Below are positions 1,331-21,329 of a stretch of 33,700 nucleotides of DNA, one piece after another. The notes under the pieces are model-generated. The model was not told the DNA's origin. It ran no database searches and saw nothing but the letters and a program-made list of their open reading frames with translations. Source of the stretch: Alistipes sp. (GTDB taxonomy: Bacteria; Bacteroidota; Bacteroidia; Bacteroidales; Rikenellaceae); contig JAGBCX010000035.1 in the NCBI GenBank assembly GCA_017937805.1, positions 1 through 33,700 on the forward strand, written 5' to 3'. How positions within the stretch are numbered: the stretch's first letter is position 1; every line of letters begins with the position of its first letter. The position numbers and the translations under genes are program-made.

Positions 1331-2083
1331 ATGATTAAAGGAGAACACATATATAAATCTTTCGATGGTCGCACCATCTTGGAGGATATCTCGGTTGAGT
1401 TCGAATCGGGCAAGACAAACCTTATCATTGGTCGAAGTGGCTCGGGTAAGACCGTATTGCTGAAAACCCTTGTCGGACTTCATGAGCCGGATAGTGGTAG
1501 CATATTTTATGACGACAAAAATTACACTTCACTCTCCTTTGCCGACCGTAAGGCGGTGCGCCGTGAGGTGGGTATGATTTTTCAGGGTGGAGCACTCCTC
1601 GACTCTTCGACTGTCTATGAGAATGTACGCCTTCCACTCGATATGTTTACCGACAAATCCTCTGCCGAGAAGGATAAACGAGTAAAGGAGTGCCTTGCAC
1701 GCGTGGAACTATCCCATGCAGGACACCTCTATCCGTCAGAGCTGTCGGGAGGTATGATTAAGCGTGCCGCAATTGCCCGTGCAATCGTGCTTAATCCCAA
1801 ATACCTCTTCTGTGATGAGCCAAACTCGGGTTTGGACCCACAGACCTCAATTGTGATTGATAACCTTATCCACGATATTACCGTAGAGTACAATATCACC
1901 ACCATCATCAACACCCACGATATGAACTCAGTAATGGAGATTGGCGAGAAAATCGTCTATATCCATCAGGGTAAGAAGTGGTGGGAAGGCACCAAAGAGG
2001 ATATTCTTCACGCCGACAATAAGGAGCTAAACGATTTTGTATTTGCTTCTGCCATGGCAAAACGAGCAAAACAAGTACTCTAA
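1331..2083 (+). CDS. mlaF: MlaF-type ABC transporter ATP-binding protein
   Basis: A 250-residue cytoplasmic ATPase that would energise the adjacent MlaE permease. Visible motifs are Walker A GRSGSGKT (34-41), the Q-loop in MIFQGGAL (about 82-89), signature LSGGM (138-142), Walker B YLFCDEP (158-164) and the switch histidine H196 in NTHDM. The signature differs slightly from LSGGQ, as is usual in the MlaF group. It sits 15 nt after mlaE. The MCE-domain partner (MlaD) that commonly follows in Bacteroidota is absent; the next sequence is a palindromic repeat and an unrelated gene. The repeat's outer arm starts in this gene's TAA stop codon. Confidence 0.92.
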   Translation: MIKGEHIYKSFDGRTILEDISVEFESGKTNLIIGRSGSGKTVLLKTLVGLHEPDSGSIFYDDKNYTSLSFADRKAVRREVGMIFQGGALLDSSTVYENVRLPLDMFTDKSSAEKDKRVKECLARVELSHAGHLYPSELSGGMIKRAAIARAIVLNPKYLFCDEPNSGLDPQTSIVIDNLIHDITVEYNITTIINTHDMNSVMEIGEKIVYIHQGKKWWEGTKEDILHADNKELNDFVFASAMAKRAKQVL

Positions 2084-2182
2084 TAGGCTCTTTTTGCACA
2101 AATCTTCGGACAGCGAGTTCCTCACATACGCTTAGTATGCTGCGGACTCGCTGCCTTGCTTTGCACAAAAATAGCTCTATTA
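2081..2182 (+). repeat. Post-stop palindromic repeat, copy R1
   Basis: A nested palindrome starting at the mlaF stop codon. The outer arms are TAATAG (2081-2086) and CTATTA (2177-2182), then TTTTTGCACAAA against TTTGCACAAAAA with a central two-base mismatch. The inner stem is CAGCGAGT/ACTCGCTG, and the apical stem CATAC/GTATG closes a GCTTA loop. Between the inner and apical stems are TCCTCA and CTGCGG. Copies at 5540-5645, 18123-18245 and 21206-21329 share this architecture in the same orientation. No U-tract follows, so it does not look like a classical intrinsic terminator. Confidence 0.85.
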
Positions 2183-2258
2183 TAGCACTTGTTTACATCT
2201 TGGTAGCCACCTAAAAACAATTTTTTATTCGATTTATATGTATATAGGTGCTTGATAT
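2136..2258 (+). repeat. Direct repeat, first copy (right half of R1 plus flank)
   Basis: The right half of R1 and about 75 nt beyond it are repeated at 2337-2455. Shared landmarks in order are TATGCTGCGGACTCGC, CCTTGCTTTGCACAAAAATA, GCTCTATTATAGCACTTG, TTTACATCTTGG, TATTCGATTTATA and GGTGCTTGATA. Differences are small substitutions and a few indels in the second half. Confidence 0.85.
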
Positions 2259-2275
2259 CGATTTACATGAATAAG

Positions 2276-2295
2276 CCCCCTTTACAGAAAGGGGG
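2276..2295. repeat. C/G-run hairpin
   Basis: A perfect 8-bp stem, CCCCCTTT against AAAGGGGG, with an ACAG loop, followed by TTTGGGGGAT. There is no clean U-tract. It lies between the two copies of the local direct repeat. It may be a small repetitive hairpin; function unknown. Confidence 0.6.
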
Positions 2296-2336
2296 TTTGG
2301 GGGATAGGTAACACATATAGCATAGTAATTTATTGC

Positions 2337-2455
2337 TATGCTGCGGACTCGCGGCCTTGCTTTGCACAAAAATAGCTCTATTATAGCACTTGTTTACATC
2401 TTGGCAACCTTGTCCTAAAAGCAATTTTCTATTCGATTTATAAGGGTGCTTGATA
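2337..2455 (+). repeat. Direct repeat, second copy (half palindrome)
   Basis: Second copy of 2136-2258. It keeps the right arm of the R1 palindrome (GCTGCGGACTCGCGGCC, then TTTGCACAAAAATAGCTC) but lacks the left arm, so it cannot fold as R1 does. One base in the inner arm has changed (CTCGCTG to CTCGCGG), consistent with lost pairing constraint, although a single change proves little. Confidence 0.8.
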
Positions 2456-2463
2456 GCGTTACG

Positions 2464-2508
2464 CCCTATCACCCCTATCACCCCTATAATCCCTATCGTC
2501 CCTATCTA
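2464..2508 (+). repeat. Nonamer array, 5 units
   Basis: Five tandem 9-mers: CCCTATCAC, CCCTATCAC, CCCTATAAT, CCCTATCGT, CCCTATCTA. The same nonamer type occurs at 32312-32356 and, in reverse complement, at 21368-21412. Confidence 0.85.
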
Positions 2509-2570
2509 TCTCACTACCCAAAAATAGTTATCTCAAAGGCAAACAAATACCTAAAAGTGAGTACTTTTCT

Positions 2571-2601
2571 TTTGTAGTTTTCACAATTTTGAGTATCTTT
2601 G
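2571..2601 (+). promoter_or_regulatory. Promoter TTTG-N19-TATCTTTG
   Basis: A -33 TTTG at 2571-2574 and -7 box TATCTTTG at 2594-2601 with a 19-nt spacer, a close match to the Bacteroidota housekeeping promoter. The predicted transcription start is only a few nucleotides before the GTG at 2607, so the transcript may be leaderless. Confidence 0.75.
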
Positions 2602-2606
2602 CACTC

Positions 2607-2939
2607 GTGAAAAAGGCGTTGAAATATAGAAGAGGCGTATCCTATCTGCTTGCTGTACTGATGATTGTGTCGGTATCAAGTCGCATGTGGATTACTCACG
2701 ACAGGGGATATTACGAAGATTTTCTCCGCACCGCACACCCTTCGGCAGATGCCCATACATGGGTATCGTGTAATTGTCCTATTTGCCACGCCGAAGATTT
2801 CATTGCAGTAGCGGCTGAGTATTTCGACTACTCGCCAATCATCTCCGAATTGGAGTTTGAGCAGGGCATTCTGCCTACTGCACAAGCCAATAATATTGTC
2901 ATTGTATCCTCGCTACGAGGACCTCCCTATTTATCGTAA
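2607..2939 (+). CDS. Small anchored protein with CxCxxC motif, possibly metal-related
   Basis: From the GTG at 2607 the product is 110 residues: a basic start, a hydrophobic signal or anchor (about 12-27), then an extracytoplasmic part with VSCNCPICHAEDF (two Cys in CxC, a third in CPIC, then His) and a C-terminal RGPPYLS. An in-frame TTG at 2619 is also possible. A longer frame opening at TTG 2589 is unlikely because it would start upstream of the -7 box. The CPIC motif and RGPP tail recall small DUF2946-like proteins found beside metal-uptake receptors, but this assignment is tentative. It lies 116 nt before a TonB receptor with a His-rich N-terminus, with no -7 box between, so the two are probably co-transcribed. 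Confidence 0.6.
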   Translation: MKKALKYRRGVSYLLAVLMIVSVSSRMWITHDRGYYEDFLRTAHPSADAHTWVSCNCPICHAEDFIAVAAEYFDYSPIISELEFEQGILPTAQANNIVIVSSLRGPPYLS

Positions 2940-2952
2940 AACATTATAGGAT

Positions 2953-3022
2953 TTGGAGCGATACAACTCGTTCCGACTAATATGTGATTTCTGCCCGAAG
3001 GAATAGAACTTTCTCGGCAGAA
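2953..3022 (+). promoter_or_regulatory. Two stem-loops in the leader before the TonB receptor
   Basis: Hairpin 1 pairs GGAGCGA (2953-2959) with TCGTTCC (2966-2972), with one G·U. Hairpin 2 pairs TTCTGCCCGA (2989-2998) with TCGGCAGAA (3014-3022), with one bulged C. Hairpin 2 is followed by TAGATAATTTTTAACG, a weak U-rich tail. It could be an attenuator, an mRNA-processing site or neither. The region is too short for a cobalamin riboswitch. Confidence 0.4.
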
Positions 3023-3055
3023 TAGATAATTTTTAACGATAAATACAAACCCAAA

Positions 3056-5530
3056 ATGAAAAAAATATTCTCAACTATTGTAGTTGTATTATTTGTGTGT
3101 GCATCTGCATACGCACAAGGCGGTCATCAACATCAACACCGCCACGGACAAGATCATCAAGCTCACAATCACGCCAAAGGCGAGCAGTGTGAGGCTACAA
3201 TTCACGGACACATCACCGACTCCCGCACAAAGGAGCATATTCCATATATTACCGTTACCATTGACGGCACAACCGTAGGTACTACGACCGATGCCACAGG
3301 ACACTACACCCTCTATCACGCCCCTGTCGGCAAGTTGAAGGTTACCGTGTCGGCTATCGGCTATGCCAGCAAGACCAAGGAGGTAGAGGTTGAGTGTGGC
3401 TCGGACATTATTTTGAACTTTGAAACTACCGAGGAGCAGATTGCGGTAGATGCAATTGTAGTATCGGCAAACCGTAACGCCACAAAGCGCAGCGAGGCTC
3501 CGACACTTGTAAATATCGTAGATTCCGACCTCTTAAATAAGGTTTCGGCACCAACTTTGGCGGAGGGATTGTCTTTCCAGCCGGGTGTGCGTGTCGAGAA
3601 CTCGTGCCAGAACTGCGGTTTTGCGCAGGTGCGTATCAATGGTCTTTCGGGACAGTATTCGCAGATTTTGATAAACTCACGCCCCGTATTTTCGGCGTTG
3701 GCAGGAGTGTATGGTTTGGAGCATATCCCTGCAAATATGGTCGAGCGCATCGAGGTTGTGCGTGGTGGAGGCTCAGCGCTGTTCGGCTCGTCGGCTATCG
3801 GAGGTACAATCAATATTATCACCAAGGAGCCGTTGCGTAACTCGGGTGAGTTGGCTCATTCGCTCACCTCAATCGGTGTAACGGGCGCACTCGACAATAA
3901 CACCACTTTGAACGCTTCGCTCGTAACTGATGATCGCAAGGCGGGACTTACAATCTATGGTCAGAACCGTATGCGTGATGCCTACGACCACGATGGCGAT
4001 GGCTTTGTGGAGATTCCTGTAATCAAGTCGCAGACAATCGGAACGCAGGCGTATCTCAAGACCAGCGCATATAGCAAACTCACCCTCGACTATCACGCCA
4101 CAAATGAGTATCGCCGTGGTGGTGACCAATTAGAGCGACCTCCACACGAAGTGTGGATTGCCGAGACTACCGACCACCTTATCAATAGCGGAGGTTTGAC
4201 CTTTGAGGGAACATCAAAGAACTCTCGCCATCGTTATAGCGCCTTTGCATCGGCGCAATCGACCAAGCGCGATAGCTACTATGGCGCCGAGATGAACGAG
4301 AAGGCATACGGTAAAACAGATGGTGTGACAGCCGTTGCAGGTGGTCAATACCTCTATCGTATCAAGTGGTTTGAGCTTACTACGGGCTTGGAGTATAGTT
4401 ACGACTACCTCTTCGATAACCCTATCGGTTACAAGGAGGATCCATTCTACTCAACAATGGTTACCGAGCAGCATGTGCACAACGCAAGTGTTTATGCACA
4501 GGGCGAGTTTAAGTTCAATAAGTGGGGTTTCCTTGTGGGAGGTCGTTTGGATAATTGGTACAACGCCTCGAACAAGAAGTTCCTCTGCATACCTTCGCCA
4601 CGTGCAACTTTGCGTTACAACCCAACTCACAACATCAACCTCCGTGCAACCTACGGCTCGGGATTCCGTGCGCCACAGGCATTTGACGAGGATTTGCATA
4701 TCCTTATCGTAGGTGGTGAGCGTACCCGTATTCGTTTGGCGGAGGATTTGAAGGAGGAGCGTTCGCACTCGTTCACCGTTTCGGCCGATATGTACAAGAC
4801 GTGGGGCCGTGTGCAGGCAAATCTCCTCGTTGAGGGTTTCTGTACTATATTGAACGATGTGTTCGCTTTGCGTGACTATGCAGGTACAAAAGAGCCTCTT
4901 GTTGATGTCCTCAAACCTGAAGATGAGTGGGCAGATCCGACCGTTCCGGAGTACAAAGATGGTGTGTATAGTGCCAATGATGGCGCACGTCTATACGAGC
5001 GTTACAATGGCTCGGGTGCAACGGTTATGGGATTAAACGTTGAGGGTAAAATTGCTTACGCCCCTTGGGTTGAGGCTTCGGCAGGTGTAACTTTGCAGCG
5101 TAGCAAGTACAAGCAACCTGAGCAGTGGAGCGATACAGCGGAGCCGACACTCAATATGTTCCGTTCGCCAAATGTATATGGCTACTTCACCGTAACCACT
5201 CAGCCACTCAAAAACTTCAAGATTGACCTTTCGGGTAACTATATGGGGCGTATGTATGTGGACCACTATGCAGAGGGAATGCTCCCTGATGGCTCGATAC
5301 TCGACCAAGACCGCATCGAGCACACTCAACCATTCTTTGACCTCGGTGTGAAACTTTCGTACGACTTCAAGATTTGGAAGAGTATCGGCTTGCAGGTCAA
5401 TGCAGGTGTTCGCAATATCTTGAACTCTTATCAGCGAGATTTCGACCGTGGTGCAGCGCGCGATTCGGGTTATATCTACGGACCATCACTTCCGCGTTCT
5501 GTATTTGCAGGCGTGAAGTTATCATTCTAA
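3056..5530 (+). CDS. TonB-dependent receptor with His-rich N-terminus
   Basis: An 824-residue outer-membrane receptor. Residues 1-20 form a signal peptide ending AYAQ. Residues 21-50 are His-rich (HQHQHRHG, DHQAHNH, HGH). A carboxypeptidase-regulatory-like beta domain follows (about 48-125, ITVTIDGTTVGTTTDATGHYTL). The plug covers about 140-260, with VRINGLSGQYSQILINSRPV and IEVVRGGGSALFGSSAIGG, and the 22-strand barrel ends in VKLSF. Family knowledge: such receptors import metal chelates, cobalamin or other small ligands using TonB energy. The His-rich segment and upstream CxCxxC protein suggest a metal substrate (zinc, copper or similar), which is inference. No -7 box is seen directly upstream. 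A terminator at 5650-5700 and palindrome R4 lie downstream. Confidence 0.9.
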   Translation: MKKIFSTIVVVLFVCASAYAQGGHQHQHRHGQDHQAHNHAKGEQCEATIHGHITDSRTKEHIPYITVTIDGTTVGTTTDATGHYTLYHAPVGKLKVTVSAIGYASKTKEVEVECGSDIILNFETTEEQIAVDAIVVSANRNATKRSEAPTLVNIVDSDLLNKVSAPTLAEGLSFQPGVRVENSCQNCGFAQVRINGLSGQYSQILINSRPVFSALAGVYGLEHIPANMVERIEVVRGGGSALFGSSAIGGTINIITKEPLRNSGELAHSLTSIGVTGALDNNTTLNASLVTDDRKAGLTIYGQNRMRDAYDHDGDGFVEIPVIKSQTIGTQAYLKTSAYSKLTLDYHATNEYRRGGDQLERPPHEVWIAETTDHLINSGGLTFEGTSKNSRHRYSAFASAQSTKRDSYYGAEMNEKAYGKTDGVTAVAGGQYLYRIKWFELTTGLEYSYDYLFDNPIGYKEDPFYSTMVTEQHVHNASVYAQGEFKFNKWGFLVGGRLDNWYNASNKKFLCIPSPRATLRYNPTHNINLRATYGSGFRAPQAFDEDLHILIVGGERTRIRLAEDLKEERSHSFTVSADMYKTWGRVQANLLVEGFCTILNDVFALRDYAGTKEPLVDVLKPEDEWADPTVPEYKDGVYSANDGARLYERYNGSGATVMGLNVEGKIAYAPWVEASAGVTLQRSKYKQPEQWSDTAEPTLNMFRSPNVYGYFTVTTQPLKNFKIDLSGNYMGRMYVDHYAEGMLPDGSILDQDRIEHTQPFFDLGVKLSYDFKIWKSIGLQVNAGVRNILNSYQRDFDRGAARDSGYIYGPSLPRSVFAGVKLSF

Positions 5531-5539
5531 AAAATTGTT

Positions 5540-5645
5540 TTTAAGCAGCGTTTGCTGCGTTAAACTTCGGTAGCCGAGTTGCTCACATACGCCAAAGTAT
5601 GCTGCGCACTCGGCTCCTTGTTTGCCTTGCAACCATCTGCTTAAA
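5540..5645 (+). repeat. Post-stop palindromic repeat, copy R4
   Basis: Begins 10 nt after the TonB receptor stop. The outer arms are TTTAAGCAG (5540-5548) and CTGCTTAAA (5637-5645). The inner stem AGCCGAGT/ACTCGGCT surrounds TGCTCA, CATAC, GCCAAA, GTATG and CTGCGC. The inner stem differs from R1 (CAGCGAGT/ACTCGCTG) by paired changes on both sides, while the TGCTCA/CTGCGC interior segments are kept. Confidence 0.85.
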
Positions 5646-5649
5646 TTCC

Positions 5650-5700
5650 ACTTTTACTCTCGTTATCTATTATTTGAAACAATGGAGTAAAAGTTTTTTG
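5650..5700 (+). terminator. Intrinsic terminator after the TonB receptor
   Basis: ACTTTTACTC (5650-5659) pairs perfectly with GAGTAAAAGT (5685-5694), followed by TTTTTG. The loop of 25 nt is long. It lies immediately after R4, so R4 would be inside the transcript's 3' end. Confidence 0.65.
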
Positions 5701-5791
5701 TTTGGCGCAAAATTCCCTCGCTCATAAGCAATTTTTGGCTTTTCTCTTTGGTCTAATTGTCGTTATTCGAAAAAGCTCTCGTCTTGTGTCT

Positions 5792-5812
5792 AAAACAAAA
5801 GTTTTCCGTTTT
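5792..5812 (+). repeat. 21-bp direct repeat, first copy
   Basis: AAAACAAAAGTTTTCCGTTT plus one T is repeated exactly at 5914-5934. The second copy is the entry into the glgB heptamer array, so this is a short stub of the same module, with two heptamers only. Confidence 0.75.
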
Positions 5813-5844
5813 AATCCTGCATTGCAGGCTTTTCCTCCTTCGCA

Positions 5845-5959
5845 CCTCGGCATAGTGTGCAAGCACCCTCTGCCCTCGGTTTGGCGTAGGTTCCGCTTTC
5901 CCGCTCCAAACGAAAAACAAAAGTTTTCCGTTTTCCGCTTTCCGTTTTCCGTTTTTTAT
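5845..5959 (+). repeat. Promoter-proximal dispersed repeat, copy Y
   Basis: Homologous to 2-124 over its whole length: CCTCGGCATAG, GCAAGCACCC, TGCCCTCGGTTT, GTTCCGCTTTCCC, then the AAACAAAAG entry and five heptamers ending GTTTTTTATT. It abuts the -7 box of glgB (5960-5967). A small palindrome, CCTGCATTGCAGG, lies just upstream at 5817-5829. Confidence 0.7.
5923..5957 (+). repeat. Heptamer array, 5 units
   Basis: Tandem heptamers GTTTTCC, GTTTTCC, GCTTTCC, GTTTTCC, GTTTTTT. The order and number of units nearly match the array at 88-122. It ends 2 nt before the -7 box of glgB. Confidence 0.85.
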
Positions 5960-5967
5960 TATATTTG
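5960..5967 (+). promoter_or_regulatory. -7 box TATATTTG for glgB
   Basis: Matches TAnnTTTG, 30 nt before the glgB ATG. The usual -33 position lies inside the heptamer array and has no TTG. Confidence 0.7.
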
Positions 5968-5997
5968 TAGTGTTTTAACTCTTAAATTGCCGTAAGT

Positions 5998-8028
5998 ATG
6001 GTTGAGAAGAAGAGAAAGCAGTTGGCGATGGTTGCCGAAGATGAGTGGTTGCAACCCGTTGAGGAGGCTGTGAATGAGCGATACGATGCCTATTGCCGGC
6101 ATCTTGCCGATATTGAGCGTAACGGCTCGATTGTAGATTATGCAAATGGCTATCGCTATTTCGGCTGGCAGTACGATGAGGATATGTCGGGCTGGTGGTT
6201 TCGTGAGTGGTTGCCTGCAGCATACGATGTCTATATCTTTGGCGATTTTAATAATTGGCAACGCACTCAGTTGCGTTTGAACAAAGATGTTCATGGCATA
6301 TGGAGTATATTTTTACCCGATGCGATGTACGAGTTCCGCTTGACGCACGGCTCGCTCTACAAACTCCATATTCACGGACAAAATGGCTGGCACGACCGTA
6401 TTCCGGCTTACGCTACACGCCTTATCCAAGACGATACAACGAAGAACTACTCGGCGCAATTTTGGATTCCGCAACCATTCGATTGGGGCGAGGACAGACT
6501 CGTTGTCGATAAAAATAATCTGCTGATTTACGAAACCCATATCGGTATGTCCTCCGAGAAGGAGGGCATCAGTACCTACAAGGAGTTTGAGCAGAAGGTT
6601 CTGCCTCGTGTCAAGAAGGCGGGCTATAACGCCATTCAGGTTATGGCGATTGCCGAGCACCCTTATTACGGCTCGTTTGGTTACCATGTAGCAAATTTCT
6701 TTGCTCCGTCATCGCGTTTTGGTACACCTGAGGAGTTGAAATCGTTGGTGCGTAAGGCGCATAAGTTGGGCATTGCTGTAATTATGGATATTGTTCATGC
6801 CCACTATGTCAAGAACTTCAACGAGGGTATAAACGAACTCGATGGCTCGCCTTACCACTACTCGAAAGAGGGTGGTGCAGGCTATCAACCATATTGGGAC
6901 TCTAAGATTTTCGACTATGGCAAGCGTGAGGTGGAACATTTCCTCCTCTCGAATGTGAAGTATTGGCTCGACGAGTACCACTTTGACGGCTACCGCTTCG
7001 ATGGCGTGACCTCGATGATATATCACCACCACGGATATACCGACTTCGACTGTCGCGAAAAGTTCTTTGACGAGGGTGTAAATCGTGATGCCTTGGTCTA
7101 TCTCTCGTTGGCGAACAAACTCGTGCATGATTTCCGCCCTGAGGCCGTAACCATTGCCGAAGATGTCAGCGGAATGCCCGGCATGTGTCGTACAATCGAA
7201 GATGGAGGTATTGGCTTCGACTTCCGACTCGGAATGGCGATACCTGACTTCTGGATTCGCCTTATCGAAGATGAACGTGATGAGGATTGGAATGTCGAGG
7301 AGATTTGGGGCGTATTGACAAATCGTCTGCCGAAGGTCAAGACGGTGGCTTATGCCGAGTCGCACGACCAGGCGATGGTGGGCGATAAGACTATCGCTTT
7401 CCGCCTGATGGATAAGGAGATGTACTTTGCGATGAACAAAGGCTCGGAGAACTTGATGGTGGAGCGCGGTATGGCTCTGCATAAGATGATTCGACTGATG
7501 ACAATCTCGGTGGGTGGCGATGCCTACCTCAACTTTATGGGCAACGAGTTCGGACACCCTGAGTGGATAGATTTCCCACGCGAGGGCAACGATTGGAGCT
7601 ACTCGCATGCACGCCGTCAGTGGTCGTTGGCGGATAACGGTTTCTTGCGTTACGGGCAACTCGGAGCCTTCGATAAGGAGATGTTGAAGGTGGTCAAAAA
7701 GTATAAGGTTTTGGCAGACGGCTACCCTTACAAGTGGCACTCCGACCAAGAGAATCAAACTATTGCCTACTCGCATAAGGGGTTGTACTTTGTCTTTAAT
7801 TGGAGCCCGACAAACTCAATTCCGGACTATCGTGTCGAGGTGCCGTGGGCTGGAAAATATACGGTGGAACTCTCGACCGATGAGGAACGCTTCGGAGGTT
7901 TTGACCGCCAGACAAAGGGACAGGAGCACTTTACCGAAACGATTAAGGACGAGTGGGATAATGCTCACCACTTTATAAAGATTTACAACACTGCCCGAAC
8001 AGCAATGGTGTTGAAGTGGCACAAATAG
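5998..8028 (+). CDS. glgB: 1,4-alpha-glucan branching enzyme
   Basis: Transfers alpha-1,4-glucan segments to form alpha-1,6 branches in glycogen; cytoplasmic. The 676-residue protein has an N-terminal CBM48-like domain (about 50-160, with YIFGDFNNWQR), a GH13 catalytic barrel and a C-terminal beta domain. Catalytic residues by family position are nucleophile D335 in GYRFDGVTSM, acid/base E388 in TIAEDVSGMPG, and H456-D457 in ESHDQAM. RFDGVTSMIYHHHG is the wording of eukaryotic-type (GH13_8, GBE1-like) enzymes and differs from E. coli GlgB. The ATG at 6000-range start follows the promoter by 30 nt. No other glycogen gene is adjacent. It shares its upstream repeat module with the DUF4834-mla operon. 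Confidence 0.95.
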   Translation: MVEKKRKQLAMVAEDEWLQPVEEAVNERYDAYCRHLADIERNGSIVDYANGYRYFGWQYDEDMSGWWFREWLPAAYDVYIFGDFNNWQRTQLRLNKDVHGIWSIFLPDAMYEFRLTHGSLYKLHIHGQNGWHDRIPAYATRLIQDDTTKNYSAQFWIPQPFDWGEDRLVVDKNNLLIYETHIGMSSEKEGISTYKEFEQKVLPRVKKAGYNAIQVMAIAEHPYYGSFGYHVANFFAPSSRFGTPEELKSLVRKAHKLGIAVIMDIVHAHYVKNFNEGINELDGSPYHYSKEGGAGYQPYWDSKIFDYGKREVEHFLLSNVKYWLDEYHFDGYRFDGVTSMIYHHHGYTDFDCREKFFDEGVNRDALVYLSLANKLVHDFRPEAVTIAEDVSGMPGMCRTIEDGGIGFDFRLGMAIPDFWIRLIEDERDEDWNVEEIWGVLTNRLPKVKTVAYAESHDQAMVGDKTIAFRLMDKEMYFAMNKGSENLMVERGMALHKMIRLMTISVGGDAYLNFMGNEFGHPEWIDFPREGNDWSYSHARRQWSLADNGFLRYGQLGAFDKEMLKVVKKYKVLADGYPYKWHSDQENQTIAYSHKGLYFVFNWSPTNSIPDYRVEVPWAGKYTVELSTDEERFGGFDRQTKGQEHFTETIKDEWDNAHHFIKIYNTARTAMVLKWHK

Positions 8029-8071
8029 TCGTTTCGCAAATAGGAGTACAAGAAAAATCAAAAAAAATCGT

Positions 8072-8079
8072 TATCTTTG
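8072..8079 (+). promoter_or_regulatory. -7 box TATCTTTG for the POT transporter
   Basis: Perfect TAnnTTTG, 54 nt before the ATG at 8134. No clear -33 element is seen. Confidence 0.65.
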
Positions 8080-8133
8080 CGACTAAATAGGATATTGTAT
8101 TTATATATTTATTAACACAAAAACAGTAAAATT

Positions 8134-9666: not shown

Positions 9667-9681
9667 TGAAGATGCTCTATA

Positions 9682-9725
9682 AAAGATAGTAAGCGGTGTT
9701 TTGCACCGCTTACTATCTTTTTATA
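9682..9725. terminator. Strong bidirectional intrinsic terminator
   Basis: A perfect 17-bp stem (9682-9698 with 9704-9720) with a TTTTG loop. It is flanked by A-rich sequence on the left and TTTTT on the right, so it can end both the POT gene (+) and the DUF4249 gene (-), which converge here. Confidence 0.92.
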
Positions 9726-9736
9726 TATGTATATAC

Positions 9737-10612
9737 CTATTGAGTCTGTTGTGGAGGTATCGGAATATTAACCGGTCTGACAATGTACGAAGTAACTCCA
9801 TATCCCATCCATATACCGGCTGCGCCACCTGTGATGTTTGTCGGAGGTACCTCATCAACAGGGAATACGGGATTTAGGCTGTTGAGAGTGCAGTTCTCCC
9901 AAACGCTCCAATACTTATAACCGAACTTCTCCATGGTGCAGAACTCGATATGTACATCTTCAAACTTCAGGAAGAGGGTTGAATATTCGGCAATGTTGGT
10001 GTAGTCGATAGGTCGATTGATTGTTATAACGTTCTCCTGTTCGCAACTGTCGAAGATACCAAACAGAGCCGGTGGATAGTAGATAGGTCTATCCTCTTCG
10101 GTAAATGAGGTTGCGCATCGTATCATATAGGGTAATCCCTCTGCGTTAGGCTTTATCTTTGCTTGAAGTCGATATAGGTTGTCTTTAACGTGCTCCATCT
10201 TTATGTCATAGAGCTTGTTCGGATTGGGGATTGTGGTCTCGGCACTCCATTGACGGCCACTATAGGTGATATCAAGTCTATATGTGCCCCCGATGCGTCC
10301 TTGAATACGCGAACTCTTATATACAAATCGTGTTGGGTATCGTTCATCGACCATTCCTATAAGTTTTTCTGTGTCGTTTCTGTCAACATCGGTTACGTGA
10401 ACTACCGCCCATCTCACTATCTTATCTCGCATAGTCTCCTCCGATATCTCCTCACTCTTGTCCATGTTCAGAGTGAGCATAACCTCGGCAACTCGGTCTT
10501 GGCGGATAGAGCCTTCGACAACAAGTTGCTCCTTGAATTCATTTTGAGGGTACTCCTCCTTCAAACAAGAACTCAAAAAGAGTGAAATAAATATGTAGAC
10601 AAAAAATCTCAT
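9737..10612 (-). CDS. DUF4249 family lipoprotein
   Basis: A 291-residue product with a lipoprotein signal (SLFLSSC, lipidated Cys about 16), then EQLVVEGSI and a beta-rich domain with GGTYRLDITYSGRQWSAETTIP (about 108-129). This is the pattern of DUF4249, a Bacteroidota family encoded next to TonB-dependent receptors. By genomic association these are thought to be receptor-associated surface or periplasmic lipoproteins; the exact role is unknown. It starts 7 nt after the stop of the TonB receptor at 10620-12665, so translation is likely coupled. It ends at the shared terminator. Confidence 0.85.
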   Translation of the reverse strand: MRFFVYIFISLFLSSCLKEEYPQNEFKEQLVVEGSIRQDRVAEVMLTLNMDKSEEISEETMRDKIVRWAVVHVTDVDRNDTEKLIGMVDERYPTRFVYKSSRIQGRIGGTYRLDITYSGRQWSAETTIPNPNKLYDIKMEHVKDNLYRLQAKIKPNAEGLPYMIRCATSFTEEDRPIYYPPALFGIFDSCEQENVITINRPIDYTNIAEYSTLFLKFEDVHIEFCTMEKFGYKYWSVWENCTLNSLNPVFPVDEVPPTNITGGAAGIWMGYGVTSYIVRPVNIPIPPQQTQ

Positions 10613-12665: not shown

Positions 12666-12686
12666 ACTTTGGGTTTTGTAGTAGAT

Positions 12687-12727: not shown

Positions 12728-12747
12728 AGATTAGAAAATCGCAGTTA

Positions 12748-14781: not shown

Positions 14782-14837
14782 AAAGGTAATTATTTGTTGT
14801 TTGTTAATTTTTGCTCAAAAAAAAGACGTTTGCTACG

Positions 14838-14868
14838 CAAAGGTATGTACAAAAATATGATTTTACAA
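14838..14868 (-). promoter_or_regulatory. Promoter for the BACON lipoprotein gene
   Basis: On the minus strand the -7 box TACCTTTG is at 14845-14838, with a TTG at 14868-14866 and a 20-nt spacer. It is divergent from the PAP2 promoter (box at 14889-14896), and the two share the A/T-rich segment between them. Confidence 0.7.
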
Positions 14869-14888
14869 GCAAAATATACAAAATTTTG

Positions 14889-14896
14889 TATCTTTG
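14889..14896 (+). promoter_or_regulatory. -7 box TATCTTTG for the PAP2 phosphatase
   Basis: A perfect TAnnTTTG ending 7 nt before the ATG at 14904, so the predicted 5' leader is only a few nucleotides. It decides against longer upstream starts of this frame. Confidence 0.75.
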
Positions 14897-14903
14897 CGCC
14901 GTT

Positions 14904-15767
14904 ATGATGTCGAAAAAGGTCGAAAAAGTGTTGCATTTGGTCGTGTTGACGATGGCGATTTTGGTGCTGTCGGCTGGCGATGTGGTTGCCAAGACAAAGT
15001 CTTCGGCAAATAGAAAGTCGTATGCTCAACAGTTTGGTAATCAAGATAGCAATGTAATACTTCGCAAAAATGGCAAGGTCGATTGGTGGGAGATGAACCA
15101 AACCCACTCCACACGCTTCCGTGCCGAGCAGTTGGTTGTGCCCGTGTCGTTGGTTGGCTTGGGTGTGTTGGGTATCGGCGAAAATGCTCCGATGCGAGGT
15201 ATAAATCTTGCCATTAAAGATGGACTTTACGAGGCAAGTAAGGGCGTAAAACTCCGTTTTGACGACTACGTGCAGTATGTTCCGGTGGCTTTCTATTTGA
15301 CGCTCGATTTTATGGGCTTGAAAGCTAAGCACTCTTTTGGTGAGCGTTTGGCAGTGGGAGTTGTGACCTATATTTCGGTGACCGCCTTGTCGCAGAGTAT
15401 CAAGTATATAGTTCGCGAGCCTCGCCCTGATACGGGAACACGCAATTCATTCCCTTCGGGACACACTATGACAGCATTTGCGGGTGCTGAATTGGTGCGT
15501 TCCGAGTATGGCTGGGGTGTTGGTATGGGCGCATACGCCTTGGCTGCTACGGTGGGATTTATGAGAATGTATAATGGCCGTCATTGGTTTAATGACGTAT
15601 TGGCCGGTGCCGGTTTTGGTATTTTGTCGGCACGTGTGGGCTATTGGATGTTGCCACTTAGCCGCCATATCTTCAAAATTCCTCGCAAGGGGCAGGCGAT
15701 GGTTGCTACTCCAATCTATCATTCCGATACCAAAGCGGTCGGTATGTCGTGCGCAATACAATTTTAA
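14904..15767 (+). CDS. PAP2 family phosphatase
   Basis: A 287-residue protein from the first ATG of a MetMet pair; ATG 14907 is equally possible. An N-terminal signal or membrane segment covers 9-28. All three PAP2 motifs are present: K167 to P175 (KYIVREPRP), PSGH (184-187), and R221 with H227 and D231 in RMYNGRHWFND. The histidines H187 and H227 are the expected catalytic pair. The family dephosphorylates lipid phosphates such as undecaprenyl pyrophosphate, phosphatidylglycerol phosphate or lipid A, with the active site on the periplasmic side. Which of these applies is not visible. The frame can be extended upstream to 14811, but that lies before the promoter. Confidence 0.88.
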   Translation: MMSKKVEKVLHLVVLTMAILVLSAGDVVAKTKSSANRKSYAQQFGNQDSNVILRKNGKVDWWEMNQTHSTRFRAEQLVVPVSLVGLGVLGIGENAPMRGINLAIKDGLYEASKGVKLRFDDYVQYVPVAFYLTLDFMGLKAKHSFGERLAVGVVTYISVTALSQSIKYIVREPRPDTGTRNSFPSGHTMTAFAGAELVRSEYGWGVGMGAYALAATVGFMRMYNGRHWFNDVLAGAGFGILSARVGYWMLPLSRHIFKIPRKGQAMVATPIYHSDTKAVGMSCAIQF

Positions 15768-15809
15768 CATACGGGCGAAAAACTATCGGTACGTAGCCTG
15801 CGAAAATGT

Positions 15810-15850
15810 AAGTTGCATCACAAAAAAAGTGGTGCAACTTGCTGTTTTTT
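15810..15850 (+). terminator. Intrinsic terminator after the PAP2 gene
   Basis: AAGTTGCATCAC (15810-15821) pairs with GTGGTGCAACTT (15829-15840), with one G·U and an A7 loop, followed by GCTGTTTTTT. The same stretch lies just upstream of the kbl -7 box at 15864. Confidence 0.8.
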
Positions 15851-15863
15851 GGCGTAAAAATTA

Positions 15864-15871
15864 TATCTTTG
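15864..15871 (+). promoter_or_regulatory. -7 box TATCTTTG for kbl
   Basis: Matches TAnnTTTG. A TTG at 15839-15841, at the foot of the upstream terminator stem, is 22 nt away and could act as the -33 element. The leader to the ATG at 15956 is about 80 nt. Confidence 0.65.
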
Positions 15872-15955
15872 CGTTGGGTATTGTTACAATTTGTAAGCAA
15901 ACCCTGCCGTTTGGTGAGAGATGTAAGAGGATAAATAATTAAAAATCAAATATAT

Positions 15956-17143
15956 ATGTACGGTAATTTCAAACAGCATCTTCAACAAGAGTTGGAGTCT
16001 ATCAAGGAGGCCGGTCTATATAAGACCGAGCGAGTAATATGTTCGCCACAGCGTTCGGCTATTGAGGTGGCCGAGAAGGAGTGCCTTAACTTCTGCGCCA
16101 ATAACTACCTCGGTCTGTCCGATAATCCTCGTCTTATCGAGGCGGCGAAAAAGGCGATGGACGAGCGTGGTTTCGGAATGTCGTCAGTGCGCTTTATCTG
16201 TGGTTGTCAGGATATCCACAAAGCACTCGAAAAGGCTATTGCTGACTACTTTGGTACGGAGGATACAATCCTCTATGCGGCTTGTTTCGATGCTAATGGA
16301 GGTGTTTTCGAGCCACTCTTTACCGAGCAAGATGCGATTATTTCCGACTCGCTGAATCACGCCTCGATTATTGATGGAGTGCGCCTTTGCAAGGCTGTGC
16401 GCTATCGCTATGCCAACGCCGATATGGAGCAGTTGGAGGATTGTTTGAAGCGTGCGCAGGCACAGCGTTTCCGCATAATTGTAACCGATGGTGTATTCTC
16501 GATGGACGGCAATGCCGCACCGCTTGATGAAATTTGTCGCTTGGCGAAGGAGTATCGCGCTTTGGTGATGGTCGATGAGTGCCACTCGGCTGGCGTTTTG
16601 GGTAAGACAGGCCGTGGCATTACCGAGTTGTACAACCTTCGTGGCGAGGTCGATATCCTCACCGGCACACTCGGCAAGGCGTTTGGAGGTGCTATCGGAG
16701 GTTTTACCACGGGTCGCAAGGAGATTATCGATATGTTGCGTCAGCGTTCACGCCCTTACCTCTTCTCGAACTCGTTGCCACCGGCAGTTGTGGGTGCAGG
16801 TATCGAGATGTTCAAGATGTTGGAGGAGAGCAACGAATACCACGACCGCTTGGTTGAGAATGTAGCATTCTTCCGCGAGAAGATGATTGCGGCAGGCTTC
16901 GATATCAAACCTACCGTGTCGGCAATTTGCGCCGTTATGCTCTACGATGCGAAGTTGTCGCAGGAGTTTGCAGCGGCATTGCAGGAGAAGGGTATCTTCG
17001 TAACGGGCTTCTACTATCCGGTTGTGCCGAAGGGGCAGGCACGTATCCGTGTGCAAGTATCGGCAGGACATACGAGAGAGCAGTTGGAGCGTTGCGTTGA
17101 GGCATTTGTTGAGGTCGGAAAGAATTTGGGTGTGCTGAAATAG
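15956..17143 (+). CDS. kbl: Glycine C-acetyltransferase (2-amino-3-ketobutyrate CoA ligase)
   Basis: A PLP-dependent alpha-oxoamine synthase that converts 2-amino-3-ketobutyrate and CoA to glycine and acetyl-CoA in threonine breakdown; cytoplasmic. The 395 residues align from end to end with remembered E. coli Kbl: FCANNYLGLSDNP (46-58), SSVRFICGCQDIHKALE, DSLNHASIIDGVRLCKA (131-147), TDGVFSMDG, MVDECHSAG and LRQRSRPYLFSNSLPPA. The PLP lysine is K241 in TGTLGKAFGG. No threonine dehydrogenase gene is adjacent. The following Lrp/AsnC regulator, 56 nt downstream and without its own clear promoter, may be co-transcribed and respond to an amino acid. Confidence 0.95.
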   Translation: MYGNFKQHLQQELESIKEAGLYKTERVICSPQRSAIEVAEKECLNFCANNYLGLSDNPRLIEAAKKAMDERGFGMSSVRFICGCQDIHKALEKAIADYFGTEDTILYAACFDANGGVFEPLFTEQDAIISDSLNHASIIDGVRLCKAVRYRYANADMEQLEDCLKRAQAQRFRIIVTDGVFSMDGNAAPLDEICRLAKEYRALVMVDECHSAGVLGKTGRGITELYNLRGEVDILTGTLGKAFGGAIGGFTTGRKEIIDMLRQRSRPYLFSNSLPPAVVGAGIEMFKMLEESNEYHDRLVENVAFFREKMIAAGFDIKPTVSAICAVMLYDAKLSQEFAAALQEKGIFVTGFYYPVVPKGQARIRVQVSAGHTREQLERCVEAFVEVGKNLGVLK

Positions 17144-17199
17144 AGTAGCACAACCCCATAACCCATAAATTTATATTTTCACTCTTAAAATTTTGGATT

Positions 17200-17673
17200 A
17201 TGAGTAAAGAAGTATTAGATGTGATTGACCGCAAGATTCTGAAATTTTTGGTTAAGAATGCCCGCATGCCATATTTGGAGATTGCGCGTGCCTGCGGAAT
17301 TTCGGGTGCAGCGATACACCAGCGCATCAAGAAGTTGGAGGACGAGGGTGTTATCCTTGGTTCGCGTATGATTGTCAATCCGAAGATGCTCGGATTTGAT
17401 GTTTGCGCCTTCGTAAATCTTCGTATTCAGGACCCGATGATGAGTATCTCGGTGGCGGAGAAGATGAAACTTATTCCGGAGGTCGTTGAGTGCCACTTTA
17501 TAACGGGTACATATACCGCAATGGTTAAGTTGTATTGCGTGGATAACGAACACTTGATGCGAACAATTTTTGATAATATTCTTCGTATTCCGGGTGTTAC
17601 CAATACGCAAACCTACATTTCGCTGAACGAGGCTTTTACTCGTGAGCCACATATTGATTACTTGGACAAGTAG
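17200..17673 (+). CDS. Lrp/AsnC family transcriptional regulator
   Basis: A 157-residue DNA-binding protein. The N-terminal helix-turn-helix covers about 5-60 (VIDRKILKFLVKNARMPYLE, then ISGAAIHQRIKKLEDEGVI). A RAM/Lrp C-terminal effector-binding domain covers about 70-150 (AFVNLRI and the glycine-containing FITGTYTAMVKLY). Family members sense amino acids as octamers and control metabolism genes. Its position after kbl suggests control of threonine/glycine metabolism, which is inference. Its TAG stop is followed after one nucleotide by the queD ATG. Confidence 0.92.
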   Translation: MSKEVLDVIDRKILKFLVKNARMPYLEIARACGISGAAIHQRIKKLEDEGVILGSRMIVNPKMLGFDVCAFVNLRIQDPMMSISVAEKMKLIPEVVECHFITGTYTAMVKLYCVDNEHLMRTIFDNILRIPGVTNTQTYISLNEAFTREPHIDYLDK

Positions 17674-17674
17674 T

Positions 17675-18124
17675 ATGGCACGAATACGATTAACAAAGGA
17701 GTTTTCGTTCGAGTCGGCACATGCACTTGATGGCTACGATGGGTTGTGTCGCGAAATTCATGGCCACTCGTATCGTCTTTTTGTTACGGTTAAGGGCGAG
17801 CCTTCGTGCGATGAGAGCAACCCGAAGTTGGGTATGGTGATGGACTTTGGCGACTTGAAACGCATCGTCAATAGCGAGATTGTTGATAGGCTCGACCATT
17901 CGTTTGTATTGCGCGACTCGGAGCAGAATGCGGAGTTGCGAGAGGTGCTTGGAGCAAAGTTTAACAAGGTGGTCTTGGTCGATTATCAACCGACCTGCGA
18001 GAATATGTTGGCGGACTTTGCCGAGCGCTTACAGAGGGCTTTGCCTGCGAATGTGCAGTTGTACTCGTTGCGTTTGCACGAAACAGCTACCTCGTATGCC
18101 GAATGGTTCTCTGATGATAACTAA
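17675..18124 (+). CDS. queD: 6-carboxy-5,6,7,8-tetrahydropterin synthase-like protein
   Basis: Converts dihydroneopterin triphosphate to 6-carboxytetrahydropterin in queuosine/7-deazaguanine synthesis; cytoplasmic. A 149-residue protein of the PTPS fold. The zinc ligands are H16 (FSFESAH), H29 and H31 (HGH). The catalytic cysteine is C25 in GLCREIHGH, and VMDFGDLK, LDHSF and RLHET are also as in QueD. The start at 17675 was chosen because it lies 1 nt after the upstream stop and gives the normal N-terminus. The longer frame opening at 17642 would overlap the regulator gene. Other queuosine genes are not in the window. Its stop codon is part of palindrome R2. Confidence 0.92.
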   Translation: MARIRLTKEFSFESAHALDGYDGLCREIHGHSYRLFVTVKGEPSCDESNPKLGMVMDFGDLKRIVNSEIVDRLDHSFVLRDSEQNAELREVLGAKFNKVVLVDYQPTCENMLADFAERLQRALPANVQLYSLRLHETATSYAEWFSDDN

Positions 18125-18245
18125 AATCGTTCTGATTGGCTTTTTTTGCACGAATCTGCGGACGCTGAAATGCTCACATAGGTTTACTATGCTGCGCTTT
18201 CATCGCCTTGCTTCGCACAAAAATAGCTCAATCATTGACGATTTT
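18123..18245 (+). repeat. Post-stop palindromic repeat, copy R2
   Basis: The outer arms AAAATCGT (18123-18130) and ACGATTTT (18238-18245) are exact complements, and the left arm overlaps the queD TAA. Inside are TTTTTGCACGAAT against TTCGCACAAAAA, an imperfect stem (CGCTGAAA/TTTCATCG), TGCTCA, apical stem CATAG/CTATG around GTTTA, and CTGCGC. The apical pair is CATAG/CTATG here but CATAC/GTATG in R1 and R4, a compensatory change. Confidence 0.87.
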
Positions 18246-18263
18246 ACACATGGGTAAATAATT

Positions 18264-18298
18264 AATTTTTAATTCTCAATTCTCAATTCTTAATTTGA
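18264..18298 (+). repeat. Heptamer array, 5 units, containing the polA start codon
   Basis: Tandem heptamers AATTTTT, AATTCTC, AATTCTC, AATTCTT, AATTTGA. The last unit contains the TTG used as the polA start (18295-18297). It has the same period and about the same unit number as the GTTTTCC arrays elsewhere. Confidence 0.8.
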
Positions 18299-21204
18299 AA
18301 CGGCTTTTCCTTGTCGATGCTTACGCATTGATTTTCAAATACTACTACGCATTTATGGGGCGACCTATGCGCAATCATGCAGGTATGAACACCTCGATTG
18401 TCTATGGGTTTACGAAGTTCTTGCGTGATATTCAAAAACGAGAGAAACCTGACCTCTTGGGTGTCGCTTTTGACCCGAAGGGAGGTTGCTTCCGCCGAGA
18501 TATATACCCCGAATATAAGGCTAATCGCCCCGCTACGCCCGAGGATATTTTGCAGTCGGTACCATACGTAAAGCGCATTGTTGAGGCGATGTGTATTCCC
18601 GTGTTGGAGGTGCCCGGTTTTGAGGCTGACGATGTTATCGGAACACTCGCCAAGAAGGGTGATGAAGCGGGCTATGAGGTCTTTATGGTTACGCCTGATA
18701 AGGATTACGGACAACTCGTAGGCGAGAATCGCAAACTCTACAAGCAGAAGGGTGATGGTATCGAGATAGTCGATAAGGAGGCGATACGGGAGAAGTATGG
18801 CATCGACCGTCCTGAACTTGTGCGTGATATCTTGGCTCTGTGGGGTGACTCTTCCGATAACATTCCGGGAGTTCCGGGTGTAGGCGAGAAGGGCGCATGC
18901 AAGATGGTGCAGGCGTGGGGCGAGGTTGAGAATATTATCGCCAATGCCGACAAGATTGGTGGCAAAACGGGTGCCAACATTATCGCTAATGAGGAGCAGT
19001 TGCGTTTGGCAAAGGTGCTGACAACAATACGCCTCGATGTGCCGATAGAGTTTAGAGAGGAGGATTTGACCGTCTGCTCGCCGAAGATTGATGAGTTGAG
19101 GGCACTGTTTGCGGAGTTGGACTTCAAGGGCTTCTTGGCCGATTTAAATAATATCGCACCTGTGGAGGTGTCAGATGTGCCACGACAGGCGGAGCAGATG
19201 CAACTTGCCAATATGGCACGAATGAAGGCGGGACAGCAGAAAAAGGCTTCGTTGGAGGGGCAAGGCTCGTTGTTTGATGCGATGTTTGCGCCTATCGTGC
19301 CTGCCGCAGAGGTTGTGTCAGCACCGACCGAGGTGAGTGAGGTGGAACCTGACCTCTTTGCGAGTGCATTTGCTACGGTGGCAAACACTCCGCACAAATA
19401 TACAACGATATATACGGCCGAGGAGTTGCGCAGGGTGGTTGCAGAGATTTCGACCGCATCGCACTTCTGCTTCGATTTCGAAACTACGGGGCTTGATATG
19501 TTTGGCGACCGCATAGTTGGTCTGTCGCTCGCTATTCGTGAACATGAGGCGTGGTATATTCCGTTTGGACATAACGCCGATGTGCGACCTCGCAACGATA
19601 TTGAGGCGGAGTATGCCTCGATTTTAAGACCTCTTTTTGAGAATGAGAGCATTGCCAAGGTGGGGCAGAATATGAAGTTCGATATCTTGTTCCTTCGTGC
19701 GTTGGGTATATCGGTTAAGGGTATGAAGTGGGATACTATGCTGTTGCACTACCTGCTCGATGCCGAGTCGCGACACGGAATGAATGCCATGGCAGAGAGA
19801 TACTTGAACTACTCGCCAATTGAGATAGAGACACTTATTGGTAGGGGGGCAAAGCAACTTACGATGGATATGATAGGGGTGGAGCGTATCGCGGAGTATG
19901 CTGCCGAGGACGCAGATATTACCCTTCAACTCTACAATGTGCTTTTGCCGCTTATCGAGAAGGAGCCTTCGTTGCTGACACTCTATCGCACCATTGAGGA
20001 GCCGATGATAGATGTTTTGGCAGATATGGAGTGGGAGGGTGTTCGCATAGATAGTGTTGCCCTGCAAAACTACTCGGCAACACTTTCGCAGAAACTCGCA
20101 GCCATAGAGGAGCAGATTCGCGAGGTGTCGGGCGAGCGTGAGATAAATATCAATTCGAGCCGACAGTTGGGCGAATTGCTCTTTGCGAAGATGCGCATCA
20201 CCGACAAACCGAAGATGACCAAAACCAAGCAATTCTGCACCGATGAGGAGTATCTGCAATCGTTTGCAGGGGAGCACAAGGTTGTAGATTTGATTTTGGA
20301 GTATCGAGGAGTGAAGAAACTGCTTTCGACCTATGTTGATTCGTTACCTTCGCTTGTAAACCCTATTACGGGACATATCCATACATCGTACAATCAGGCG
20401 GTTACGGCAACAGGTCGCCTCTCTTCGGCAAATCCTAATTTGCAGAATATTCCGGTGCGCGATGACCTTGGTCGCCCAATTCGCTCAGCCTTTGTGCCGA
20501 GCGATGATAGGCACGAACTCCTCTCGGCAGACTATTCGCAGGTGGAGTTGCGACTGATGGCACACCTGAGTGGTGACGAGAATTTGTGCGAGGCGTTCCG
20601 TGAGGGCAAAGATATTCACGCTGCTACGGCTGCACGCATCTTTAAGAAGCCTATTGAGGAGGTCACAAGCGAAGAACGCCGCCGTGCCAAGACGGCAAAC
20701 TTCGGAATTATATATGGCATCTCGGCATTTGGTTTGAGCCAGCGTTTGCGTATTCCGCGCAGCGAGGCGAAACAACTCATTGAGGGCTACTTCGAGTCCT
20801 ATCCGAAGGTTAAGGAGTATATGGACAATGTGGTCAATAACGCCCGCGAGAAGGGGTATGTCGAAACGCTCTTTGGTCGCCGTCGTTACCTTGCAGATAT
20901 CGACTCGCGCAACACCAATGCGAGGTCTTTGGCTGAGCGCAATGCCATAAACGCCCCAATTCAGGGTACGGCAGCCGATATTATGAAGATTGCGATGGTG
21001 GGGGTTGCTCGTCGCTTTAAGGCGGAGGGTGTGCGCTCCCGAATTACAATGCAGGTGCATGACGAAATAGTGGTCGATTTGTTGCGCTCGGAGCGTGAGA
21101 AGGTCGAGCAGATTGTCCGCGAGGAGATGGAGGGTGCAGCAAACCTCTCAATTCCACTCACCGCAGAGTGTGGGGTAGGTGATAATTGGCTTGCAGCGCA
21201 TTAA
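18295..21204 (+). CDS. polA: DNA polymerase I
   Basis: A 969-residue replication and repair polymerase. The 5'-3' nuclease covers 1-290 (VDAYALIFKYYYAF; FEADDVIGTLA; GDSSDNIPGVPGVGEKGA). A Gln/Ala-rich linker covers about 295-365. The 3'-5' exonuclease has an intact DEDDy set: D394 and E396 in FDFETTGLD, D463, Y535 and D539. The polymerase has motif A D746 (SADYSQVELR), motif B F803/Y807 (ANFGIIYGISAFGLS) and motif C D923-E924 (QVHDEIV). All three activities therefore look functional. The start is a TTG, because the conserved nuclease N-terminus begins there and the next ATG would remove it. No -7 box is seen in the 170 nt upstream, so transcription may come from before queD. Confidence 0.96.
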   Translation: MKRLFLVDAYALIFKYYYAFMGRPMRNHAGMNTSIVYGFTKFLRDIQKREKPDLLGVAFDPKGGCFRRDIYPEYKANRPATPEDILQSVPYVKRIVEAMCIPVLEVPGFEADDVIGTLAKKGDEAGYEVFMVTPDKDYGQLVGENRKLYKQKGDGIEIVDKEAIREKYGIDRPELVRDILALWGDSSDNIPGVPGVGEKGACKMVQAWGEVENIIANADKIGGKTGANIIANEEQLRLAKVLTTIRLDVPIEFREEDLTVCSPKIDELRALFAELDFKGFLADLNNIAPVEVSDVPRQAEQMQLANMARMKAGQQKKASLEGQGSLFDAMFAPIVPAAEVVSAPTEVSEVEPDLFASAFATVANTPHKYTTIYTAEELRRVVAEISTASHFCFDFETTGLDMFGDRIVGLSLAIREHEAWYIPFGHNADVRPRNDIEAEYASILRPLFENESIAKVGQNMKFDILFLRALGISVKGMKWDTMLLHYLLDAESRHGMNAMAERYLNYSPIEIETLIGRGAKQLTMDMIGVERIAEYAAEDADITLQLYNVLLPLIEKEPSLLTLYRTIEEPMIDVLADMEWEGVRIDSVALQNYSATLSQKLAAIEEQIREVSGEREININSSRQLGELLFAKMRITDKPKMTKTKQFCTDEEYLQSFAGEHKVVDLILEYRGVKKLLSTYVDSLPSLVNPITGHIHTSYNQAVTATGRLSSANPNLQNIPVRDDLGRPIRSAFVPSDDRHELLSADYSQVELRLMAHLSGDENLCEAFREGKDIHAATAARIFKKPIEEVTSEERRRAKTANFGIIYGISAFGLSQRLRIPRSEAKQLIEGYFESYPKVKEYMDNVVNNAREKGYVETLFGRRRYLADIDSRNTNARSLAERNAINAPIQGTAADIMKIAMVGVARRFKAEGVRSRITMQVHDEIVVDLLRSEREKVEQIVREEMEGAANLSIPLTAECGVGDNWLAAH

Positions 21205-21205
21205 A

Positions 21206-21329
21206 AAAATCGTTCTGGCGGGTAAATTTTGCACGAGTGCATCGGACGCCAAAATGCTCACATAGGTCTACTATGCTCCGCTTTTGTCGCCTCGCATCGC
21301 ACAAAATTTCCACCACCATTTACGATTTT
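21206..21329 (+). repeat. Post-stop palindromic repeat, copy R3
   Basis: Begins 2 nt after the polA stop. The outer arms are AAAATCGT (21206-21213) and ACGATTTT (21322-21329), as in R2. The core reads CGCCAAAA, TGCTCA, CATAG, GTCTA, CTATG, CTCCGC, TTTTGTCG. The inner stem CGCCAAAA/TTTTGTCG differs from R2 (CGCTGAAA/TTTCATCG) by paired changes. Flanks TTTTGCACGAG and TCGCACAAAA are kept. Confidence 0.87.

Follow-up and report, generated by a model that had tools for sequence, protein, structure and literature searches.

The stretch of DNA analysed here (the window) is 33,700 nt of an Alistipes sp. contig, and it carries four copies of a long nested palindrome (Table 1). By Pfam assignment, the genes upstream of them encode an MlaF-like ABC ATPase, a TonB receptor, a 6-pyruvoyl tetrahydropterin synthase (PTPS) and DNA polymerase I. 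All four copies lie 3' of these plus-strand genes in the same orientation, as the earlier note had described from the sequence alone, and in each the left arm is at or across the stop codon. The copies had been said to start 0–10 nt from the stop, but the outer arm of copy 1 begins within the last codons of its gene, the stop of which (TAA, 2081-2083) is inside the left arm. The second left-arm fragment is probably a truncated tandem copy. Another palindromic repeat (GGCTTTTCCTCCT..CTCGGCA..) is present downstream of copy 2, at 5827-5850 and onward, and lookalikes of it occur inside the main element, or replace its inner part, in two related genomes (G064, loci L374-L376 and L378; G072, loci L381 and L391).

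Table 1. Element copies and fragment found in the window.
Feature	Positions	Strand	Description
Copy 1	2072..2191	+	Imperfect hairpin, long, closing the MlaF-like gene; CC/GG variant beside the apex
Copy 2	5537..5648	+	3' of the TonB receptor gene (stop 5528-5530)
Copy 3	18122..18246	+	End of the PTPS gene; arm TAAAATCG holds the stop codon (18122-18124)
Copy 4	21205..21330	+	Immediately 3' of polA (stop 21202-21204)
Left-arm fragment, second	21341..21360	+	Downstream of copy 4

As RNA, each copy folds into one long imperfect hairpin, with minimum free energies of -47, -43.1, -45.3 and -39.7 kcal/mol for copies 1-4, z-scores of -6.85, -5.31, -7.33 and -4.55, and no equally good fold among 200 shuffles of any copy. 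A covariance model (R1), built from 78 aligned sequences and covering the inner 69 positions, placed the copies where they had been reported, with scores of 66.8 bits (copy 2), 60.2 (copy 4), 58.4 (copy 3) and 49.0 (copy 1); the next-best match in the rest of the window reached 9.1 bits, and only the four copies exceed noise. Copies 2 and 4 (L015, L017) are among the training rows and copies 1 and 3 are outside the set, although close copies of copy 3 are included. The earlier note had regarded a match to a known Rfam family as counting against its proposal, and no match at any element reached its family cut-off. The window gave no matches at gathering thresholds, and in searches of nine loci at E-values up to 1, all matches to the element were far under the cut-off, for example a microRNA-precursor model on a Legionella copy (32 bits, cut-off 180).

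The apex of the element consists of a loop of about 3–8 nt on a 5-bp apical stem, which occurs as CATAC/GTATG, CATAG/CTATG, CATAT/ATATG or CGTAC/GTACG. Below this, TCA lies opposite CT(G/C)C with a bulge, followed outward by two pairs, mostly GC/GC but in some copies CC/GG, then by an unpaired T.C and an 8-bp inner stem that is free in sequence. Further stems, split by recurrent mismatches, continue outward to the outermost arms, for example TAAAATCG/CGATTTTA. The common apical motif is (G/C)(G/C)TCA-CATA..TATG-CT(G/C), and conservation in the 78-sequence alignment peaks at the apex, not at the base. Segments TGCTCA and CTGCGC, previously described as fixed, do vary: copy 1 has TCCTCA and CTGCGG, a paired swap of G-C to C-G. 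One inner stem listed earlier, CGCTGAAA/TTTCATCG, is incompletely complementary, with one C.T mismatch, and such mismatches recur in the family. An otherwise similar element in G072 (L391, contig C41) has the apical stem TTTAC/GTAAA, and nested hairpins with another apex (GTAC..GTAC type) were seen at mlaF or PTPS stops in G003, G052 and G005 (L216, L245, L248 and L255).

Compensatory changes in the stems, first proposed from the four copies, are real. In an alignment of 78 reference sequences (79 were made and L177 was excluded), 78.3% of cells are paired, against 64.0% after shuffling and at most 45.7% when slid, and 326 cells carry two-sided changes, compared with 138.5 in shuffles, none of 500 reaching 326. 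Two of the five measures used did not clearly exceed shuffles: the number of pairs altered on both strands of the stem (15 against 14.8; 419/500 shuffles) and the number of pair types (63 against 59.5; 30/500). For the full-length alignment, 25 of the 30 outer-arm matches in the source genome were used and five excluded; these 25 copies are each 120–123 nt, and RNAalifold returned 36 pairs, of which 22, including pairs of the outermost arms, show two-sided changes.

The covariance-model search that the earlier note had recommended uncovered a genome-wide family. In the source genome (89 contigs totalling 1.84 Mb, with a completeness of 85%) the exact apical motif has 42 matches (reversed control, 0) and the covariance model at least 75; the relative G072 has at least 81. 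Across the genus, 44 of 61 genomes have matches at an E-value of 0.01 and 17 have none; since no more than 83 candidates were scored in any genome, the high counts are lower bounds. Copies with the same arms are found in Alistipes and Rikenellaceae MAGs, and among 296 Bacteroidota genomes at least 20, the source genome included, have matches (6 of 140 genera; 17 candidates scored per genome). In named genomes the apical motif occurs in at least 115 stretches, and the matches listed include Deltaproteobacteria, Legionellales, other Gammaproteobacteria, Sulfurimonas, Listeria and Paenibacillus, although some of the single matches are probably due to chance. The copies inspected from one Chlorobium-like family (f34) have CCTCACGTAC..GTACGCTCCGG, with paired changes at positions invariant in the set from the source genome, and 56 elements from 103 non-Alistipes loci (viral and Chlorobium-like included) passed the pairing filter. 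In a plasmid collection, five records (Legionella, Phyllobacterium, Halomonas, Pseudomonas and Klebsiella) gave partial matches that cover 26–50% of the query. For three of these, no transposase is named within 3 kb in the gene table, and the Halomonas record has no annotated genes at the match. A Yersinia copy used as query had no match in E. coli. The record LR134132.1, labelled as Klebsiella aerogenes plasmid 12, contains dnaA-dnaN-recF-gyrB, and a short match resembling the element (L426) lies between dnaN and recF; the record looks like a piece of chromosome rather than a plasmid.

The placement of the elements relative to genes was assessed with a simple longest-frame gene caller, tandem copies being counted apart, and was usable for 32 of 38 elements in the source genome and 82 of 113 in the genus. 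Between codirectional genes, the element shares the strand of the flanking genes at 12 of 16 sites in the source genome (P 0.08) and 50 of 57 in the genus; between convergent genes, it is nearer to the same-strand stop in 13/14 and 18/20 cases, respectively. The distance from stop codon to apex is 30–66 nt for 24 of 26 upstream same-strand genes in the source genome and 61 of 70 in the genus. At the left ends of the 25 full-length copies, 15 stops fall at the foot of the arm, three at a TGA within the arm and two further out, with no upstream frame found for the other five. The strand-specific insertion at gene ends suggested in the earlier note, which had also called for a test of orientation and stop distance, is borne out within the genus; the 42 usable non-Alistipes elements have no detectable orientation bias (codirectional, 8/22; convergent, 11/17). 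These do retain a residual excess of stops at 30–66 nt on the same strand (13/25, against 7/31), and they lie between convergent genes in 17 of 42 cases and divergent genes in three (background, 58 and 62 of 272 gene pairs). A preference for 3' ends looks general, while it is in the genus that elements are strongly oriented on stop codons. Stable stem-loops are generally situated close behind stop codons, according to PMC1590033, and such placement fits the general 3'-end preference.

Comparison between relatives provides examples of near-identical copies at different sites and of sites that are occupied in one genome and empty in another. G064 carries many copies at different places, mostly 95–98% identical across about 145–171 bases, with a left edge that is sharp by eye and a common unit that extends through a terminator-like hairpin. 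Within the repeated unit at L318-L325 this hairpin, which reads GGGAGTGTCTAA..TTAGACACTCCC or has paired changes from it, comes directly behind the element, and it is also seen after two G072 copies. At one G064 site, the counterpart in the source genome, and likewise in G062 and G073, is a short terminator-like hairpin only. Eight sites of the source genome could be mapped in G072 (part of that genome): four are without a full element, two have the same element and two a different one, and at one of the last there is also an adjacent remnant. The site of copy 2 lacks the element in G072. At the PTPS stop (copy 3), it is present in the source genome, G062 and G073 and absent from G072 and G064, and in the more distant species G003 this position is taken by a different nested hairpin, one with a distinct apex. 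The polA stop (copy 4) is occupied in the source genome and in G062, is empty in G064 and G073, and retains a left-arm remnant in G072; the two elements share outer arms but differ in their inner stems, each of which is largely self-complementary. Downstream of mlaF, the single element of the source genome is accompanied by a right-arm remnant of the element that is present in G072 and G064; in G073 the apex is a variant one, and G062 lacks an element. Tandem copies about 120–125 bp apart occur in several relatives. Taken together, the near-identical copies at different sites and the occupied and empty orthologous sites indicate, at the level of sequence comparison, that the element is mobile. 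Presence or absence at a single site could come from loss or strain recombination instead of insertion, and because G072 is the closest genome to the source by polA, loss, regain and strain recombination are inseparable at any one site. By eye, no target-site duplication was seen at the few comparable sites, and no transposition event was identified in the genomes compared.

A gene for a RAYT-like transposase had been suggested as something to look for, but Y1_Tnp (PF01797, the RAYT/IS200-type domain) was found in none of the 61 genus genomes, 44 of them carriers, against 5 of 14 control genomes, and a RAYT is unlikely as the mobiliser in the genus. Reverse transcriptase domains (RVT_1) occur in 20 of the 61, with weak single matches in the carriers G062 and G073, and are absent from G000, G072, G050, G001 and G064, five of the highest carriers, so that a reverse transcriptase or group II intron relative is also an unlikely mobiliser. 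No partner gene family stood out beside the elements in an all-versus-all BLASTP comparison of 3,382 stop-to-stop frames from 207 loci, the largest cluster of neighbouring frames spanning 13 loci. One outer-arm type, searched in the source genome with at most one mismatch, gave 30 matches: 25 complete short elements, three truncated and two coding-like. No longer element with the same ends was seen among them (truncated copies were read for 140 nt), and since this genome is 85% complete the mobiliser could be missing from it.

Of the readings offered in the earlier note, a structured 3'-UTR RNA, acting as a terminator, stabiliser or processing signal and retained by selection on the transcript, is disfavoured, and we now judge it distinctly improbable. 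Within the genus there are strong coding-strand hairpins right after stop codons, the repeated unit of G064 continues into a terminator-like hairpin, and transcript selection could produce both the orientation and the stop-codon bias. RNA helices accept G.U pairs. Of 272 motif matches, 218 were kept, the 54 with fewer than five of eight Watson-Crick cells being dropped as chance, and their 1,744 inner-stem cells comprise 1,524 Watson-Crick, 14 G.T, 25 A.C and 181 other combinations, the latter mainly C.T/T.C (147) and T.T (22). Wobble cells are depleted, not enriched: G.T makes up 6.4% of the 220 non-Watson-Crick cells compared with 18.7% after shuffling, and A.C is no rarer than G.T, whereas in the acceptor and T stems of 32 distinct tRNAs from the same DNA, G.T accounts for 29 of 32 such cells. 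The 56 non-Alistipes elements have 5 G.T and 14 A.C among 72 non-Watson-Crick cells. The lack of a detectable orientation bias outside Alistipes and the 17 genus genomes without a match also speak against an RNA. Because G.T is depleted relative to the tRNA control, the case that the stems are maintained as DNA pairing is strong, but it is not final, as RNA folding on both strands would look alike, and an RNA that must fold in both senses might avoid wobble.

Known kinds of mobile DNA account for parts of the picture. The element could be a MITE of the usual sort, belonging to a resident insertion sequence of the DDE type, with the outer arms as terminal inverted repeats and the inner palindrome as a passenger; its size, non-coding nature and dispersal agree with this, and some outer arms in other phyla resemble insertion-sequence ends. 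We consider this unlikely, given that 25 of the 30 outer-arm matches in the source genome are complete short elements, that the apex and not the ends is most conserved, and that no target duplication was seen by eye at the few comparable sites. REP or REPIN elements moved by RAYT (Y1 HUH) transposases are similarly imperfect palindromes with bulges in high copy number, and the ends of GTAG REPs can likewise supply stop codons (PMC3733652). For the genus this origin is largely refuted, and we give it very little credence: Y1_Tnp is absent from the 61 genomes and present in controls, the unit is 120–123 nt and not 20–40, and the GTAG tag is missing, since no single column has GTAG or its complement in more than 4 of the 78 aligned copies or 1 of the 25. 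A site that can fold, placed behind a stop codon and oriented with the gene, also recalls the attC sites of an integron-type cassette system, but Pfam identifies the genes preceding the four copies in the window as housekeeping genes and the most conserved part is the apex rather than the base, which makes this origin highly improbable.

The explanation we prefer, and consider probable, is that the family consists of MITE- or REP-like mobile non-coding DNA palindromes that are read as folded DNA and moved by a putative trans-acting enzyme, and that in the genus have one prevailing orientation at stop codons or terminators. The family is multicopy, dispersed and non-coding, about 120–125 bp in the source genome, and is a dispersed inverted-repeat element in the sense used for MITEs; its stems are free in sequence and near-strictly Watson-Crick, with recurrent pyrimidine-pyrimidine mismatches, and its internal geometry is fixed. 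We infer that an enzyme supplied in trans would read the folded strand, or a cruciform, through the apex, bulges and mismatches, and would copy or move the element. In the genus, insertions would occur, or be retained, at the 3' ends of genes and mostly with one orientation, either on the stop codon, which the end of the element would often carry, or beside intrinsic terminators. Arm-to-arm palindrome repair and exchange between copies may help to maintain the complementarity of the arms. A broader proposal, which we put forward tentatively and regard as possible rather than probable, is that these elements belong to a cross-phylum superfamily of 'structure-coded' mobile DNA, whose identity would lie in the apex, bulges and mismatch positions, with nearly all of the stems free, served by a widespread putative enzyme that would recognise DNA in its folded form and that, in certain hosts, would insert the elements in transcript orientation at the ends of transcription units. 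The combination of free stems, strict pairing and little wobble is a signature that can help to separate, across genomes, selection on folded DNA from selection on folded RNA. The mobiliser, if found, could be a new hairpin-reading DNA enzyme, one to set beside HUH transposases and integrons. Repeats of this kind also matter in annotation, as they look like conserved 3'-UTR RNAs and may change the stop codons and last codons of genes.

Within the open-access literature searched, by motif and by concept, no description of the element was found and the family appears undescribed, the Geobacter supplementary alignments lying outside the comparison; the available portions of PMC2267715 and PMC1590033 do not describe it. 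It is nearest in kind to MITEs and REPs, and fails the tests for a REP. The Geobacter 'multicopy nucleotide sequences' are also palindromic intergenic repeat families, in Deltaproteobacteria, but the legend to the set describes pentanucleotide repeats and not the apical motif, a comparison by description only. Other similar repeats are RU-1, which we take to be ERIC, and further bacterial MITE-like sequences. Like the element, these are intergenic and mobile, at about 127 bp (PMC2759123, PMC2229807). By those descriptions, the element is set apart by stems that are free in sequence, with pairing and a few motifs kept, and by its spread over phyla. REP, REPIN and BIME sequences share with it the short non-coding intergenic palindrome, the many copies, the complementary stem variants and the possible supply of stop codons (PMC3733652 and PMC2817692), but the element is 3–4 times longer, has nested stems and occurs without a Y1 transposase in the 61 genomes. 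Pairing of G.T is frequent in GTAG REP stems, according to PMC3733652, unlike in the element, where wobble is depleted. CGTC REPs are likewise without a known transposase, but their tag is inconstant in the element, reaching at most 9 of 78 copies in one column, and 10 of the 25 source-genome copies have the complementary tag close to the right foot. Integron attC sites resemble the element in being variable in sequence and conserved in folded geometry, and the element differs from them in its conserved apex and its housekeeping neighbours.
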